From contig NZ_VKKY01000001.1 in the NCBI RefSeq assembly GCF_008271695.1, forward strand, positions 558,001-622,000: a stretch of DNA of 64,000 nt, given 5' to 3'. This document shows, one piece after another, positions 1 through 6,422 of this stretch. The stretch's first letter is position 1; every line of letters starts with the position of its first letter. The notes below the pieces were generated by a model, which was not told the DNA's origin, searched no databases, and saw only the letters and a program-made list of their open reading frames with translations. Both the position numbers and the translations under genes were made by a program. The stretch comes from Rufibacter hautae. GTDB taxonomy: Bacteria > Bacteroidota > Bacteroidia > Cytophagales > Hymenobacteraceae.

Positions 1-564
1 ACCTTCCTCAAACGCCTCAATGCTTTGGTGCACCTCGGACTCTTCAATGTATTTCTCGGTGGAACCGCACCACACCATCACCAGGCGGGCGCAGTCGTTG
101 GCTTCCTTGAAGTTCTCAATGTCGTCCATCAGGGCTTGGGCCAGATCGGCTTTGGTGGCCGCCTCCTTGATGTGGTCACCGTCCAGGTTGGCGATATAGG
201 CCTTGTCAAACACCGCTTTCATGGGCTTGATGGCTTCCAGTTCGGCCTTCACGGCGTGCAGCATCATCGGCTCTATCACCTTGGCTTTCATAGCGGCCTC
301 AAACACGTTGTCTGAGTACACATCCCAGCCCCCGAAGACAATATCATTTAGATGGGCAAGCGGAACAAAGTCTTTGATTTTAGGATGGCGGTTCTCGGTG
401 CGTTTCCCTAACCGGATGTTGCCCATCTGGGTTAAAGAGCCAACCGGCTGCGCCAGGTCTTTTTTAACGGCTTCTACCCCGGCAATAAGCGTGGTGGCCA
501 CCGCGCCTAATCCAGGCATCAACAAACCTAGTTTTCCTTCTGCTTTTTCTACGACATTATGCAT
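1..564 (-). CDS. ino1: Inositol-3-phosphate synthase, 5' part (runs off the left edge)
   Basis: The enzyme converts glucose-6-phosphate to 1L-myo-inositol-1-phosphate using NAD in the cytoplasm, the first step of inositol and inositol-lipid synthesis. The first 188 residues are visible. They open with MHNVVEKAEGKLG, then the dinucleotide-binding segment LLMPGLGAVATTLIAGVEAV, then SLTQMGNIRLGKRTENRHPK and VFGGWDVYSDNVFEAAMKAK, all typical of bacterial MIPS. The segment RLVMVWCGSTEKYIEES comes near the edge. The frame is open to base 1, so the C-terminal catalytic half lies outside the window. The ATG at 564 is the natural start because homologues begin just before the EGKLG segment. It is monocistronic as far as can be seen. 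Confidence 0.93.
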   Translation of the reverse strand, partial: MHNVVEKAEGKLGLLMPGLGAVATTLIAGVEAVKKDLAQPVGSLTQMGNIRLGKRTENRHPKIKDFVPLAHLNDIVFGGWDVYSDNVFEAAMKAKVIEPMMLHAVKAELEAIKPMKAVFDKAYIANLDGDHIKEAATKADLAQALMDDIENFKEANDCARLVMVWCGSTEKYIEESEVHQSIEAFEEG

Positions 565-963: not shown

Positions 964-1566
964 TCAAGGTTGTATCTGGCCGGTGTCATTTATTAGCAGA
1001 ATCCGAGCGGTTTCTTCGTAAACTTCAATTATGCTCACAGAAGCCGGGCTGATCTCCAGGCGCTGGAAAAGGTCCAGGTGAATACCGGCGTAATACGCCA
1101 CCGCGGCTTTGATCAGGTCTGAATGGCTCACCACGGCCACGGTTTCGTGCGGGTGTTTTGCGCACAGTTTCTGCAAACCGGCCATAAAACGGGCCTGCGC
1201 CTCCAGCATCATCTCGCCGCCGGGAATCCGGGTCATGCTCCTGAAGGTGTTGAAGCGCTGGAATTCTGCCTTCCCAGACAGTTCCTCAAAGGCGCAATTG
1301 GTCCACTCCCCGAAGTTCAGTTCCAGGAAAGCCTCGTCTTGCTGCACCGGGAGCTGCTGCGCCTGGGAGATGAATTCGGCGGTTTGCAGGGTGCGTTCCA
1401 GCGGGCTGCTGTACAGGGCGTGTATTGGGAGACCAGCCAGCCTTTGGGCCAGGTACTGCGCCTGCGCCACCCCTTCCGGGTTCAGGAAAACACCCGGCGT
1501 GCGGCCAGATAAACGTTTGCCCACGGCGTCTGTGGTGGCGTGCCGGATCAATAAAATTTTGGTCAT
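964..1566 (-). CDS. Histidine phosphatase family protein (phosphoglycerate mutase-like)
   Basis: A 200-residue cytoplasmic phosphatase of the histidine-phosphatase superfamily. The N-terminal RHG-type motif is RHATTD at residues 8-13, where the His would carry the phosphoryl group. The family's second His region appears as VVSHSDLIKAAVAYY near residue 150. ALYSSPLERTLQTAE carries the conserved SPLxRTxQTA element, and the acidic ELNFGEW follows. The length matches single-domain members such as CobC/GpmB-like enzymes. The substrate cannot be read from sequence. No cobalamin genes lie nearby, so I do not call it alpha-ribazole phosphatase. It appears to be transcribed alone. Confidence 0.85.
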   Translation of the reverse strand: MTKILLIRHATTDAVGKRLSGRTPGVFLNPEGVAQAQYLAQRLAGLPIHALYSSPLERTLQTAEFISQAQQLPVQQDEAFLELNFGEWTNCAFEELSGKAEFQRFNTFRSMTRIPGGEMMLEAQARFMAGLQKLCAKHPHETVAVVSHSDLIKAAVAYYAGIHLDLFQRLEISPASVSIIEVYEETARILLINDTGQIQP

Positions 1567-1826: not shown

Positions 1827-3017
1827 ATGAATTACCATTTCCCGGGTGTGGGCTGTGCCTACAAAGCAACCCGCCGGCCCGGCCTCTACCCTTATTTCAG
1901 AAAAGCTTTGGAGAACCTACAACACAAGAACGTTTTAAAGATCGGGGTCCTGACCTTTCACCGCTGCATCAACTACGGAAGTTACTGGCAGGCCCGCTGT
2001 CTGGCCGAGGGGCTGCAGGCGCGCGGCCACGAAGCCGTTATCCTGGACCATGACTCGCGCCGCGTGAACCTGGTAGAATGGAAATGCGCTTTACAACCGG
2101 TGCTGCCCACGCCGGTGCCCGCGTCTGACCGCCCGCTGTACCGCGAGAAAACAGAGAAGTTCTTCCGCATCTTTGATACCCTGCCCCTCTCGCCGCGCTT
2201 CCCGCTGGAAGACCCCAGCCAGATGGAGAACTACGATGTGGTGGTGGTAGGCAGTGACGAGGTCTGGAACCTCTCGCACCCCTGGTACGGCTGCTGCCCT
2301 TTGTTTTACGGCGACGGCCTGAAGACCCAGCACCTCATCTCATACGCCGCCAGTTTCGGGAACTACGATGCCTCCTGGGGCATGCACCCTTTCTGGGCCG
2401 ATAAGCTGCGCAACTTTGAGTCCATCTCCGTGCGTGACGCCAACTCGCAGACCATTATCAAAGACGCGCTGGGCTTTGAGCCCGAGATGGTGCTGGACCC
2501 TTGCCTGCAGTTCCCCATCATCCCGGAGGACCGGGACCACGAGCTGCTGCAGAAGCCTTATATAGCGGTCTACGGACATAACTTTTCAGAATCCTTCGCC
2601 CGCGAGATCCGGCAGTACGCCGATAGCCGGAACCTGCCGCTTATCAGTTTTGGGTACCGCAACGACTTCGCCGATGAGCAGTGGATCACCACCGATCCGC
2701 ATGACTTTGCGCACCTCATGGCCAAAGCCGAGGCCGTAGCCACCAATTTCTTCCATGGCTGCGTCTTTGCCCTGCGCAACGCCAAACCGTTTGTGTGTGA
2801 ATCCTCGCCGTACCGCCGGCATAAACTGCAGGGCCTCATGGCCAAGATCGGCGGTGAGCACCACCTCCTGCCCGAAGGCTCAGACTATGCCCAGTACGAA
2901 GCCCTGCTGAGCACCCCCTTGAACCCGCAGATTACGCAGAAAATTGAGCAACTCCGGGAAACCTCTAATGCGTATCTGGACCGGGCGCTGGCGTTAAAAC
3001 AAGTTCAATACGCATGA
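1827..3017 (+). CDS. Polysaccharide pyruvyl transferase family protein
   Basis: The family moves a pyruvyl group from phosphoenolpyruvate to a sugar of a cell-surface glycan (CsaB/WcaK-like). The family signature begins at KIGVLTFHRCINYGSYWQ, followed by VVVVGSDEVWNLS, LISYAASFGN, SVRDANSQTII and the C-terminal ATNFFHGCVFALRNAKPFV. The last is the conserved 'HG...ALxxxKPF' block. The ATG at 1827 adds about 37 residues before the conserved start that look unlike the family, so a later non-ATG start near the KIGVL segment is possible. The stop overlaps the next start by 4 nt (ATGA), so the two genes are translationally coupled. Confidence 0.85.
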   Translation: MNYHFPGVGCAYKATRRPGLYPYFRKALENLQHKNVLKIGVLTFHRCINYGSYWQARCLAEGLQARGHEAVILDHDSRRVNLVEWKCALQPVLPTPVPASDRPLYREKTEKFFRIFDTLPLSPRFPLEDPSQMENYDVVVVGSDEVWNLSHPWYGCCPLFYGDGLKTQHLISYAASFGNYDASWGMHPFWADKLRNFESISVRDANSQTIIKDALGFEPEMVLDPCLQFPIIPEDRDHELLQKPYIAVYGHNFSESFAREIRQYADSRNLPLISFGYRNDFADEQWITTDPHDFAHLMAKAEAVATNFFHGCVFALRNAKPFVCESSPYRRHKLQGLMAKIGGEHHLLPEGSDYAQYEALLSTPLNPQITQKIEQLRETSNAYLDRALALKQVQYA

Positions 3018-4402
3018 AAGAGCTGCTGAGCCCCCGTGATATAGTGACTTCTGGCTTGTGCATTGGCTGCGGCAGTTGTGTGGCCCAGGCCAACCTGCCA
3101 GACACCCAGATGGACTTTGACGCCTATGGCCAACTGAAACCCCAGGGCCCCAACGCCTGGTACAACCGTGAGTCGGGTAGTTTCACCAGAACCTGTCCGT
3201 TCTCGCCGGGCTCCAGAAACGAAGATTACCTGGGCGCCACCCTCTTCCCCACCGCTCCCCACGTAGACAATGCCCTAGGGCGTTTCCAGGCGGCGTACGT
3301 GGGCCACGTGTCTGAGGAGGATTTCCGAATGCAGGGCAGCTCCGGGGGCATGGTCACCTGGGTGGCTACTGAACTCATGCGCCAGGGCCTTATCGACGGA
3401 GTGGCCCACGTGATTGCCACTGAGGACCCGCAGGAAGACGGCCGCTACTTCCGCTATCGCATCGCGCGCACGGAAGCTGAGATCCGGGAAGGGGCCAAAT
3501 CCCGCTATTATCCCATTGAACTGTCTGAGGTACTTTCTCTCATAAGAGAAGTGCCCGGCCGCTACGCCGTAGTGGGCATTCCGTGCTTTATCAAAGCGGT
3601 GCAGTTGCTGCGCAAGGAAAACCCCATGTACCGCGAGCGTATCCAGTACACGCTGGGCCTGTTCTGCGGCCACATGAAGAGCGCCCGTTTTGTGGAGAGT
3701 TTTGCCTGGCAGATGAACGTGCCAGTGGACCAGATAGAACAAGTGGAGTACCGCCAGAAAGACCCCAGCCGCCCCGCCAACTGGTACAACGCCAAACTCA
3801 CCCTGCGTGACGGTAACAGCGTAAACCGCGACTGGTGGCACCTGGCTGATGGCGACTGGGGAGCTGGTTTCTACATGAACTCGGCCTGCAATTACTGCGA
3901 CGATGTGGTGGCCGAAACCTCAGATATTTCCTTCGGTGATGCCTGGGTAGAGCCGTATTCCTCTGATGGCCGCGGCACGAACGTGGTGGTGGTCCGGTCG
4001 CCGTTGGTAGACCAACTGGTGACCAATGCCATCCAGGCAGGCCGCCTGCAATTGGAGCCGGTAGATGCCCGTTTTGTGGAGCAGACGCAGGCCGCCGGTT
4101 TCCGGCAGCGCCGCGAAGGGCTGGCCTACCGGCTTACCTGGCCCCGCAGCGGCGTACAGCCCCGCAAGCGCGTGATCCCAGACGACAAAACCCCTACTGC
4201 CCAACGCAAGCTCATTTACCGCATGCGCTATTACCTTTCCAAGGGTAGCCACCAGATGTTCAGGGTGGCCCGTAACCTGCAGATGCCCCAATTGTACATT
4301 GATTGGGCCCGCATGACCTTGGCAGCGTACCACGGGTTTGCCTATCACCAAGGCAATTATGAGGAGATAAAGAACCGGTATAATCAGTTGAAAGGAGAAT
4401 AA
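3014..4402 (+). CDS. Coenzyme F420 hydrogenase/dehydrogenase beta-subunit family iron-sulfur protein
   Basis: A 462-residue protein with an N-terminal ferredoxin-like cluster motif (CIGCGSC, about residues 16-22, and a later Cys in RTCPFS). The FrhB-type N-terminal and C-terminal domains follow, including QGSSGGMVTWVATELM, GIPCFIKAVQLLRKE, LGLFCGHMKS and CNYCDDVVAETSDISFGDAW. Bacteroidota have no F420 hydrogenase. In this phylum such proteins sit in surface-polysaccharide loci next to pyruvyl transferases, as here with a 4-nt overlap. A redox or reductase role in glycan modification is an inference. A strong terminator follows directly. Confidence 0.82.
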   Translation: MKELLSPRDIVTSGLCIGCGSCVAQANLPDTQMDFDAYGQLKPQGPNAWYNRESGSFTRTCPFSPGSRNEDYLGATLFPTAPHVDNALGRFQAAYVGHVSEEDFRMQGSSGGMVTWVATELMRQGLIDGVAHVIATEDPQEDGRYFRYRIARTEAEIREGAKSRYYPIELSEVLSLIREVPGRYAVVGIPCFIKAVQLLRKENPMYRERIQYTLGLFCGHMKSARFVESFAWQMNVPVDQIEQVEYRQKDPSRPANWYNAKLTLRDGNSVNRDWWHLADGDWGAGFYMNSACNYCDDVVAETSDISFGDAWVEPYSSDGRGTNVVVVRSPLVDQLVTNAIQAGRLQLEPVDARFVEQTQAAGFRQRREGLAYRLTWPRSGVQPRKRVIPDDKTPTAQRKLIYRMRYYLSKGSHQMFRVARNLQMPQLYIDWARMTLAAYHGFAYHQGNYEEIKNRYNQLKGE

Positions 4403-4508: not shown

Positions 4509-5432
4509 CTACGCTTCCTTTTTCAGCTTCTCCAGTTCCACCATTACCCGGCTGATCACGCCTGCCCAATCATCGGCGGTTTCTTGCCGGAAGAGGCACA
4601 TGGAAGGGTACCAGGGGCTGTCTTCGCGGTCATCCATCCAGCGCCAATCGGCGTGGGCGTGCAGCAGGGTCCAGACGGGCACGTTGAGGGCACCAGCCAG
4701 GTGGGCGGGCATGGAGTCTACGGTAAGAAGCAGGTCTAATCCTTTGATGGCGCGTCCGTACTCATACAAGCTGAACTCACCTGGATGGATGCCGAAACCT
4801 TCCTGCCAACCGGCAGTAGCGGCATTCTCCTGCAAGATATAGAGGTTGATGCCCTGGACCTCGGCCAGCGGCCGCAGAAAGTCAAACGGAATGGACCGAT
4901 GTGGATTCCAGTCGCCGGGTTTCCAGACCAAGCCCACGTTCAGTTTGCCCTTATCGCCGGGAAGCGGCAAGGGTTCTAGCTGGAGGTAGGGAATCTGGGA
5001 AGGAATGGTGTCCAGGGTGGTTCTGAAGATGTGCGTCAGTTCCATGACCTCCACGTCTACATCGTAGTCCACCTCGGGGGTGCCGTCATGCAGGGGCAAG
5101 AGCCGGTCAATGGTAGGAATGGTTTCCAGGAGCGGGATGAGCGGCGCCTGGGCCCACACAATCACTTCCTGGGCAATGGCTTTGATGAGCGGCGCGAACC
5201 GGATGAACTGGATGGTATCGCCCAGGCCGTGGTAGCAGCGCACCAGCACCCGTTTGCCTTGCAAAGAGGAGCCGTCCCAGACGTATTGGAAGTGACGGGG
5301 CCAGTGCCAGCAGGGTTTTCCGGCGCGTTCCTTCAACACGGCATCGCTGTGCTTCCAAGCTTCTTCAAACGTGCCCCGGCGCATGTTCAGCATCCAAACA
5401 TCGGGGGTTTCTTCCTGGGTTTCCTGGCTCAT
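4509..5432 (-). CDS. GT9-like glycosyltransferase (heptosyltransferase-type fold)
   Basis: This probably transfers a sugar from a nucleotide donor during surface-glycan assembly. It resembles the GT-B fold of ADP-heptose:LPS heptosyltransferase-like proteins. Visible marks are a Rossmann start GKRVLVRCYHGLGDTIQFIRF, the donor-domain start LNVGLVWKPGDWNPHRSIP, and the C-terminal DLLLTVDSMPAHLAGALNVP, where GT9 proteins carry a conserved D-S/T-xxxHLAxAL block. An ATG at 5465 would add 11 residues, but those codons lie inside a palindromic element (5461-5514). The ATG at 5432 (MSQETQEE) is therefore preferred. Acceptor and donor are unknown. Confidence 0.72.
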   Translation of the reverse strand: MSQETQEETPDVWMLNMRRGTFEEAWKHSDAVLKERAGKPCWHWPRHFQYVWDGSSLQGKRVLVRCYHGLGDTIQFIRFAPLIKAIAQEVIVWAQAPLIPLLETIPTIDRLLPLHDGTPEVDYDVDVEVMELTHIFRTTLDTIPSQIPYLQLEPLPLPGDKGKLNVGLVWKPGDWNPHRSIPFDFLRPLAEVQGINLYILQENAATAGWQEGFGIHPGEFSLYEYGRAIKGLDLLLTVDSMPAHLAGALNVPVWTLLHAHADWRWMDDREDSPWYPSMCLFRQETADDWAGVISRVMVELEKLKKEA

Positions 5433-5460
5433 AAAAAGAGGTGAAAGATTCTTGAAATGA

Positions 5461-5514
5461 AGCATCTCTGTTTAGGCCCACTTTTATAGAAAACGGGCGC
5501 TAAACAGAGATGCT
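5461..5514. repeat. Intergenic palindrome with 15-bp perfect outer stem
   Basis: Outer arms AGCATCTCTGTTTAG (5461-5475) and its exact complement (5500-5514) enclose a GCCC/GGGC inner stem and the core TTTTATAGAAAA. It lies 24 nt after the stop of the permuted glycoside hydrolase, so it probably acts as a terminator or an mRNA 3'-end hairpin. Confidence 0.85.
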
Positions 5515-5537: not shown

Positions 5538-6422
5538 CTAAGCGTAACGCCGCATCATGAGGGAGCAGAAATCGGCGAACTCTTCAATGTGCTGGGGCGG
5601 ACTGGTGTGGTGCGGCTGAATGCCTTTGTGCTCTGGGGTAAAGCAGAACGTGGCGGTCACGTCAAACTCATCCAGTTTCTTCATCACGTGGTCAAACCAT
5701 TTCTCGGCATCGGGGCGCAGCCAATCGGCCCAGCTCAGGCCGGTGCGTAGCTTCTTCACGCCCAGGTTGCGGAGGTGCTGTACGGCATCGTCCAGGCGGT
5801 GGTCTTCAAAGTGGAACCATTGGCAGATCCCGAACTCAGGGGTGTAGTCTGAGAAGTGCTTGTGAGCCATTTTGGGAGTACCGTCTTCCTTGAGCAGGCC
5901 CATGTGGAAGTGGCGGTAGTACGAAGAACCTTCGGCCTCGCGGTGACGGGTGGTGGCTTCCCAGGCCTGCGGCAGGTCATAGAGGCTGTACCAGAAAGCG
6001 CGGTCCACGCGGCCCATCAGCAGCTCGGCGGTGCGGCGCAAGCCGAACTCCTGCACTTCCTCGGCCCCAAAGGACGAAATCCCCACTTCGGTCACCCACA
6101 CAGGCAGGTTGGTCACGGCTTCAATCTCGGCGATTTTATCGGGCCACTCGTTGATGCTCCAGAGGTTCCAATCCAGCGGGAACCCGTGCACGGCCACGGC
6201 GTCCAGGTCTTCCAGCGTGCCGTGGCGTTCCAGGGTCTTGATGAAATGCGGGTCAATGGGCGAGATGCCGCCTAACACGCGGGTAATCTCTGGTTTCTCG
6301 GCTTTCACGGCTTTGGCGGCCAGTCTCACCATTTCCCCGAATATCTTCCATTCGGGGTCAATCTCGTACGCCCAGTGTGATTTGTTGTTTGGTTCGTTCC
6401 AGAATTTAACTGCTTCTATCAT
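5538..6422 (-). CDS. Clan-A (GH39/beta-xylosidase-like) glycoside hydrolase with circularly permuted barrel
   Basis: The 294-residue protein starts almost at the catalytic strand beta-4: the acid/base motif WNEPNN is at residues 8-13 (E10). The presumed nucleophile is in VWVTEVG (E112), and beta-8 is FWYSLYDL (143-150). A linker follows. Then come the segments that open the canonical family: FGICQWFHFED (197-207), KKLRTGLSWADW (223-234) and DVTATFCFTPE (254-264). It ends TSPPQHIEEFADFC...RRYA, which in usual homologues directly precedes the WNEP strand. A stop codon lies in frame just upstream of the ATG, and no frameshift is needed. The substrate is unknown. The glycosyltransferase downstream suggests glycan metabolism. 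Confidence 0.78.
   Translation of the reverse strand: MIEAVKFWNEPNNKSHWAYEIDPEWKIFGEMVRLAAKAVKAEKPEITRVLGGISPIDPHFIKTLERHGTLEDLDAVAVHGFPLDWNLWSINEWPDKIAEIEAVTNLPVWVTEVGISSFGAEEVQEFGLRRTAELLMGRVDRAFWYSLYDLPQAWEATTRHREAEGSSYYRHFHMGLLKEDGTPKMAHKHFSDYTPEFGICQWFHFEDHRLDDAVQHLRNLGVKKLRTGLSWADWLRPDAEKWFDHVMKKLDEFDVTATFCFTPEHKGIQPHHTSPPQHIEEFADFCSLMMRRYA

Follow-up and report, generated by a model that had tools for sequence, protein, structure and literature searches.

We describe a gene in a 64,000-nucleotide stretch of the Rufibacter hautae genome (contig NZ_VKKY01000001.1, positions 558,001 to 622,000; hereafter the window, with positions counted from its first letter). With high confidence, its open reading frame encodes a freestanding (β/α)8 glycoside hydrolase (GH) domain of the clan GH-A type that is circularly permuted and predicted to serve as a cytoplasmic retaining enzyme of the pathway encoded by its cluster. 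We also lean, by a narrower balance, towards a broader interpretation: that no natural permutation had been recognised in clan GH-A before this one, that one ancient event at the β3/β4 boundary founded a new, strongly conserved family of cytoplasmic retaining enzymes that spread between phyla with clusters for an uncharacterised inositol-containing oligosaccharide, and that nearly the same cut arose independently in family GH70. The gene and its parts are as follows.

5538..6422, minus strand: predicted circularly permuted clan-A-like glycoside hydrolase of 294 amino acids, with residue 1 starting at 6422.
6384..6401, minus strand: acid/base motif W-N-E-P-N-N (residues 8-13), N-terminal and right after β4; E10 is invariant in 81 of 81 sequences, and the motif aligns with WNEPN of PslG.
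6081..6101, minus strand: nucleophile strand β7 (residues 108-114; model strand 108-113), which aligns with W-S-T-E-W-G of PslG; E112 is likewise invariant (81 of 81).
5541..5852, minus strand: barrel start (β1, β2, β3 and α3), relocated to the C terminus (residues 191-294), which matches the canonical-paralogue profile and PslG.

Clan GH-A is defined by an acid/base glutamate that follows an asparagine at the end of β4 and a nucleophile glutamate at the end of β7. Here the (β/α)8 barrel is present, and both the alignment to PslG and the model strands place N9-E10 at the end of β4 and E112 at the end of β7. The departure is in strand order, which in the clan usually runs from 1 to 8 (though this is not formally required) and here runs 4-5-6-7-8-1-2-3. 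The new N terminus lies immediately before β4, the new C terminus is the end of helix α3 and the old termini are joined near residues 186-197. A first-pass annotation, which gave no strand for the gene, had placed WNEPNN at residues 8-13 of a 294-residue protein and reported a stop in frame just before the ATG; both are borne out on the minus-strand reading frame. The codons ahead of the ATG are TAA AAA GAA AAT, and a stop in the fourth codon upstream makes a protein start much further upstream impossible.

The rotation is apparent from comparison with relatives in the usual order. Against a profile of 21 canonical-order paralogous domains (one gene being included twice, as L017 and L030), residues 2-190 of the native window protein matched positions 114-297 (115.1 bits) and residues 191-290 matched positions 6-107 (64.6 bits), whereas the same protein rotated at residue 192 gave a single match of 191.0 bits. 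A rotation scan in steps of four found its optimum at 188-192 in all nine proteins scanned. Whole-genome searches with the re-registered protein returned canonical paralogues as one collinear piece, at 32-37% identity, and permuted genes as two swapped pieces. In the junction region, the alignment of the window protein with five canonical paralogues contains a gap of one residue. When a profile of 54 permuted-family members (A1) was compared with Protein Data Bank sequences, the best match was PslG (E = 2.6e-06; 4zn2 and 5bx9), in two pieces in swapped order: profile positions 200-293 on PslG 25-128 and positions 3-153 on PslG 132-301. The gap between the two pieces is three residues in PslG (129-131) and also three in the permuted chain when it is read circularly (294, 1 and 2). 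Both catalytic segments are aligned, and in PslG, unlike the permuted protein, the matched segments stand in canonical order. Together with the structure model, these results uphold the earlier proposal of a real circular permutation, for which a permutation-aware alignment had been suggested.

Pfam is less informative. The best match, Glyco_hydro_cc (PF11790), covers residues 7-146 on model positions 71-209 of 237 (22.8 bits, cut-off 21) and recurs at E 0.01 or better in 50 of the 54 family members. Re-registration scarcely raises the score (23.7 bits), so Pfam provides no evidence for the permutation, in contrast to the paralogue profile and PslG. The three Pfam matches listed up to E 10 do not include Glyco_hydro_39 (GH39), in a search whose filters drop weak matches and with a permutation that weakens linear profiles; GH70 or GH13 kinship was absent from the matches up to E 10 and from all 54 members at E 0.01. 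Linear profile methods see such permuted proteins only partly, as the Pfam coverage and the naming of plasmid-borne relatives as β-xylosidases illustrate.

An AlphaFold2 model shows a single eight-stranded barrel (predicted local distance difference test (pLDDT) 89.1, predicted template modelling score 0.89), with strands at residues 4-7, 47-53, 75-80, 108-113, 142-145, 197-200, 224-230 and 254-260, that is, in the order 4-8 then 1-3 and not in the canonical one. The positions given beforehand for β7, β8 and the FGIC, LRTGLSW and VTATFCF segments agree with these strands. Because Foldseek and VIA-align compare structures in chain order only, the permuted model was matched mostly to triose-phosphate isomerase (TIM) barrels of many kinds, with whole-length alignment to complete TIM barrels. 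A few clan-A enzymes (3pzn, 3pz9 and 1ur0) aligned over long stretches at a root-mean-square deviation of about 11-16, with chain-order template modelling scores of 0.30-0.48. PslG and GH39 were not among the matches listed in this chain-order search, which is no evidence of absence; a control model in canonical order was made because such aligners handle the permuted model poorly. The β8/α8 loop RHREAEGSSYYRHF (residues ~158-174) has many invariant residues and low model confidence, and is shorter and different in the canonical paralogue; it is perhaps a lid over the active site.

The permuted order is shared well beyond this genome. Scanning a collection with one genome per species (84,980 species) yielded 499 stretches, 466 of them coding for relatives, and the analysis covers the best 80 of these. 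All 80 (68-98% identity) have an ATG or GTG start directly before β4, and all end at an RRYA-like segment or at most about 55 residues past it. Over 81 sequences, including that of the window, pairwise identity averages 73% (minimum 64%) and 82 of 294 positions are invariant, among them E10 and E112 and also N9, H79, W144, Y145 and R226. A second collection of 22 family loci, whose organisms overlap with those of the first, contains no internal stop, and the same order and start codon in 80 of 80 and 22 of 22 loci bear out the earlier statement that no frameshift is present. Between the window gene and these 22 family members, the ratio of non-synonymous to synonymous substitution rates (dN/dS) is 0.02-0.14 in 15 comparisons, and dN is low in both halves of the gene in the three closest relatives.

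As a separate observation, P11 is replaced by alanine (WNEANN) in 4 of the 81 sequences (L085, L089, L091 and L093), which come from a proteobacterial bin, Lysobacter sp. GX 14042, [Pseudomonas] boreopolis and Legionella wadsworthii.

Catalytic barrels are seldom circularly permuted in nature. The nearest architectural precedent is GH70, whose catalytic residues differ from the clan GH-A type. The GH70 barrel is described as permuted relative to GH13 between β3 and β4, so that it begins with α3 followed by β4 (PMC4919382), and both families are assigned to clan GH-H (PMC5216370). GH70 thus shares with the permuted family a (β/α)8 glycosidase barrel and nearly the same cut, but its members belong to another clan and are extracellular multidomain proteins (PMC11299179) that start with α3, whereas the permuted family is a lone 294-residue domain that starts at β4 and carries α3 at its C terminus. 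Two further carbohydrate enzymes reported as permuted also lie outside clan GH-A: MalS of GH13 subfamily 19, with permutated domains (PMC10223318), and the CE4 domain of PgaB, an esterase with a circularly permuted (α/β)7 barrel (PMC13366581). For glycosidase barrels, the literature matches listed gave GH70 and, with its permutated domains, MalS; no natural permutation in clan GH-A appeared among the literature matches listed, in a search that lay outside subscription papers and CAZy. If the cuts in GH70 and in the permuted family are independent, the β3/β4 boundary would be a preferred site of rewiring.

In a maximum-likelihood tree of 33 of the 81 permuted sequences (32 loci and the window) and 26 canonical domains, all permuted rows fall on one side of a single branch, which has support of 99/96 and is present in all 200 bootstrap trees. 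Nine phyla are labelled in the tree (Bacteroidota, Pseudomonadota, Acidobacteriota, Verrucomicrobiota, Myxococcota, Chloroflexota, Nitrospirota, Armatimonadota and Actinomycetota); the Actinomycetota member is a metagenome bin, and some bins are possibly misassigned. The permutation event is not local to the window's genome: the family that shares it is spread over many phyla. We take the permuted order to be derived, because the usual one is found both in PslG and in the canonical paralogues, and the simplest reading would be that a canonical-order gene was permuted once in an ancestor and later transferred between phyla.

Tandem duplication and trimming is a plausible route to this gene. A rival route, fission of a canonical gene followed by fusion of its halves in reverse order, seems to us unlikely, although it is the strongest of the competing explanations. 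The genome listings examined contain no tandem copy, double barrel, split gene or terminal remnant; the missing intermediate keeps fission and fusion in contention beside duplication, as does the offset of one residue at the junction with the five paralogues. Nor, however, does any genome in the same listings carry the halves as separate genes, and the published model for GH70 is duplication, fusion and partial truncation (PMC4919382). One tblastn match, at L074, seemed to run past the C terminus into a second β4 and proved on inspection to be a chance extension.

In the retaining catalysis that we propose, E10 would be the acid/base and E112 the nucleophile. It is also conceivable, though improbable in our judgement, that the permuted fold is non-catalytic and serves in sugar binding or regulation of the cluster. 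The canonical-order paralogue has lost catalytic glutamates in several lineages, the window's genome among them, so non-catalytic use of the fold seems to occur in the same clusters. Against this, E10 and E112 are invariant in every one of the 81 permuted sequences, together with N9, H79, W144, Y145 and R226.

Two explanations that would do away with the permutation fare far worse. One, that the last 100 residues form an unrelated domain and that the reading frame is a truncated, late-starting hydrolase, is very improbable and was rejected: the restriction of the best Pfam match to residues 7-146 would fit it, but the canonical profile matches residues 191-290 through its positions 6-107, the A1 profile there matches PslG 25-128, and the eight strands of the model stand in barrel order, with the model aligning whole-length to complete TIM barrels, so that this region is the barrel start from β1 to β3, as the first-pass annotation had it. 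An assembly error, frameshift or decaying pseudogene is the least credible of all, has nothing in its favour and was also rejected, as independent genomes share the order and start, the 22 family loci contain no internal stop and dN/dS is low in 15 of the 22 comparisons.

Several points weigh against the permutation and its single origin as we present them. Only the best 80 of the 466 family stretches were read. The PslG pieces are weak singly (16.9 and 11.3 bits), so the evidence lies in their order and fit. One dN/dS comparison gave 0.60 (L041, probably an indel), and in six the ratio is undefined because dS is saturated. The tree is midpoint-rooted only, with an unsettled bootstrap and long branches. 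In the permuted model, residues 158-164 have pLDDT below 50; in the control model, β1 to β3 derive from two sequences only (the query and the divergent row L122); and a domain-swapped dimer may be an alternative to a single monomeric barrel.

The unpermuted copy for which a search had been suggested is present in this genome and in related ones. Here it lies about 25 kb from the permuted gene (G000:C1:536685-538742), with its barrel fused to an NAD epimerase. Such canonical GH-epimerase fusions (L027, L182, L184, L185 and L191) often lie in the same cluster and, across the barrel, are about 31-37% identical to the re-registered permuted protein. They differ from the permuted gene in their usual strand order, in the epimerase fusion and in the loss of catalytic glutamates in some members. 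Among 200 genomes of the window's taxonomic family, 23 have the permuted gene, 21 of them together with the canonical paralogue, which occurs in 49 (hypergeometric P = 5e-13, ignoring shared descent); the two genes share a contig in 15 genomes, and the matches lie within 26 kb of each other in 10 of these. A permuted and a canonical barrel in one genome, often in one cluster, offer a natural pair in which to test how permutation affects folding, stability and access to the active site.

Both catalytic glutamates are kept in 11 of the 13 canonical rows listed, and catalytic glutamates are lost in some lineages. The paralogue of the window's own genome (L027:1132-3189) reads WNGPNN with WITAAG; that of L029 reads WNAPNN with WITAAG, that of L123:797-1771 reads WNEPDK with WISATG, and at L122:8152-9300 the acid/base motif is gone. 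The canonical barrel is turning into a pseudoenzyme in these cases, whereas its permuted relative is strictly conserved.

The neighbours of the permuted gene bear on its function. Their homologues were counted over the 80 kept loci, each with at most 6 kb per side and some with less.

4509..5465, minus strand: GT9-like protein (Pfam Glyco_transf_9, 22.7 bits, cut-off 22), with homologues (query L062) at 41 of 80 loci.
3014..4402, plus strand: FrhB/FdhB-like protein, with an L062 homologue at 29 of 80 loci.
1827..3017, plus strand: polysaccharide pyruvyl transferase-like protein, with an L062 homologue at 29 of 80 loci.
964..1566, minus strand: histidine phosphatase, with an L061 homologue at 54 of 80 loci.
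1..564, minus strand: myo-inositol-1-phosphate synthase gene truncated at the window edge, with its N-terminal part inside (complete gene L183:2239-3564; Pfam NAD_binding_5 and Inos-1-P_synth).

Inositol-phosphate synthases of the L083 type occur at 28 of the loci, and those of the window's own type at 19. A TIGR04290 methyltransferase homologue, present at 35 of 80 loci, immediately precedes the permuted gene, in the same orientation, at 34 of the 78 loci with enough upstream sequence, and at several it overlaps the start codon of that gene. No report naming TIGR04290 was among the literature matches listed, in a search that did not extend to subscription papers. At a distance of about 10-28 kb, a further set of genes encodes epimerases, the canonical GH-epimerase fusion, an alcohol dehydrogenase, a Gfo/Idh/MocA oxidoreductase, glycosyltransferases and a TIGR04290 methyltransferase, and the Azospirillum cluster also has a radical SAM protein of family TIGR04295 (B12_rSAM_oligo). 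This gene content suggests that the product is an oligosaccharide or polysaccharide that is methylated and linked to inositol.

The permuted enzyme is likely, from its sequence and setting, to be a cytoplasmic retaining glycosidase or transglycosidase acting on an intermediate of the pathway, and it would make or edit the inositol-linked, methylated sugar product of the surrounding cluster. A cytoplasmic role is predicted because there is no room for a signal peptide before β4. PslG offers a possible parallel: it is described as a glycosidase from a polysaccharide cluster of Pseudomonas aeruginosa, with key residues E165 and E276 (PMC9075953), and the permuted enzyme may act on its pathway intermediate much as PslG acts on its own polysaccharide, although the compartment would differ.

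Outside the window's taxonomic family, most samples contain few copies of the permuted gene. Among 149 genomes from the phylum to which the Acidobacteria seed belongs, the seed alone carries it; the corresponding counts are 2 of 200 for the Ramlibacter seed's family (the seed counted) and 9 of 291 for the window's order. The family is nevertheless common on plasmids of rhizobia and Azospirillum: 147 plasmid records match it, and in 144 the match spans 80% or more of the query. The name β-xylosidase stands on 19 of the 30 plasmid rows listed, from Sinorhizobium and Azospirillum plasmids; it is annotation only, and nothing in the analysis supports such an activity. By genus, 66 of the 147 records, which include L193 and L194, are from Sinorhizobium, 48 from Rhizobium and 5 from Azospirillum. 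A cluster that recurs in several phyla (L194:8714-14927; L083, L118 and L182) comprises an inositol-phosphate synthase, a histidine phosphatase, Glyco_trans_1_2 glycosyltransferases and a TIGR04290 methyltransferase, in places with a PIG-L deacetylase and a GNAT protein, and has the appearance of a cyclitol or oligosaccharide pathway not described before.
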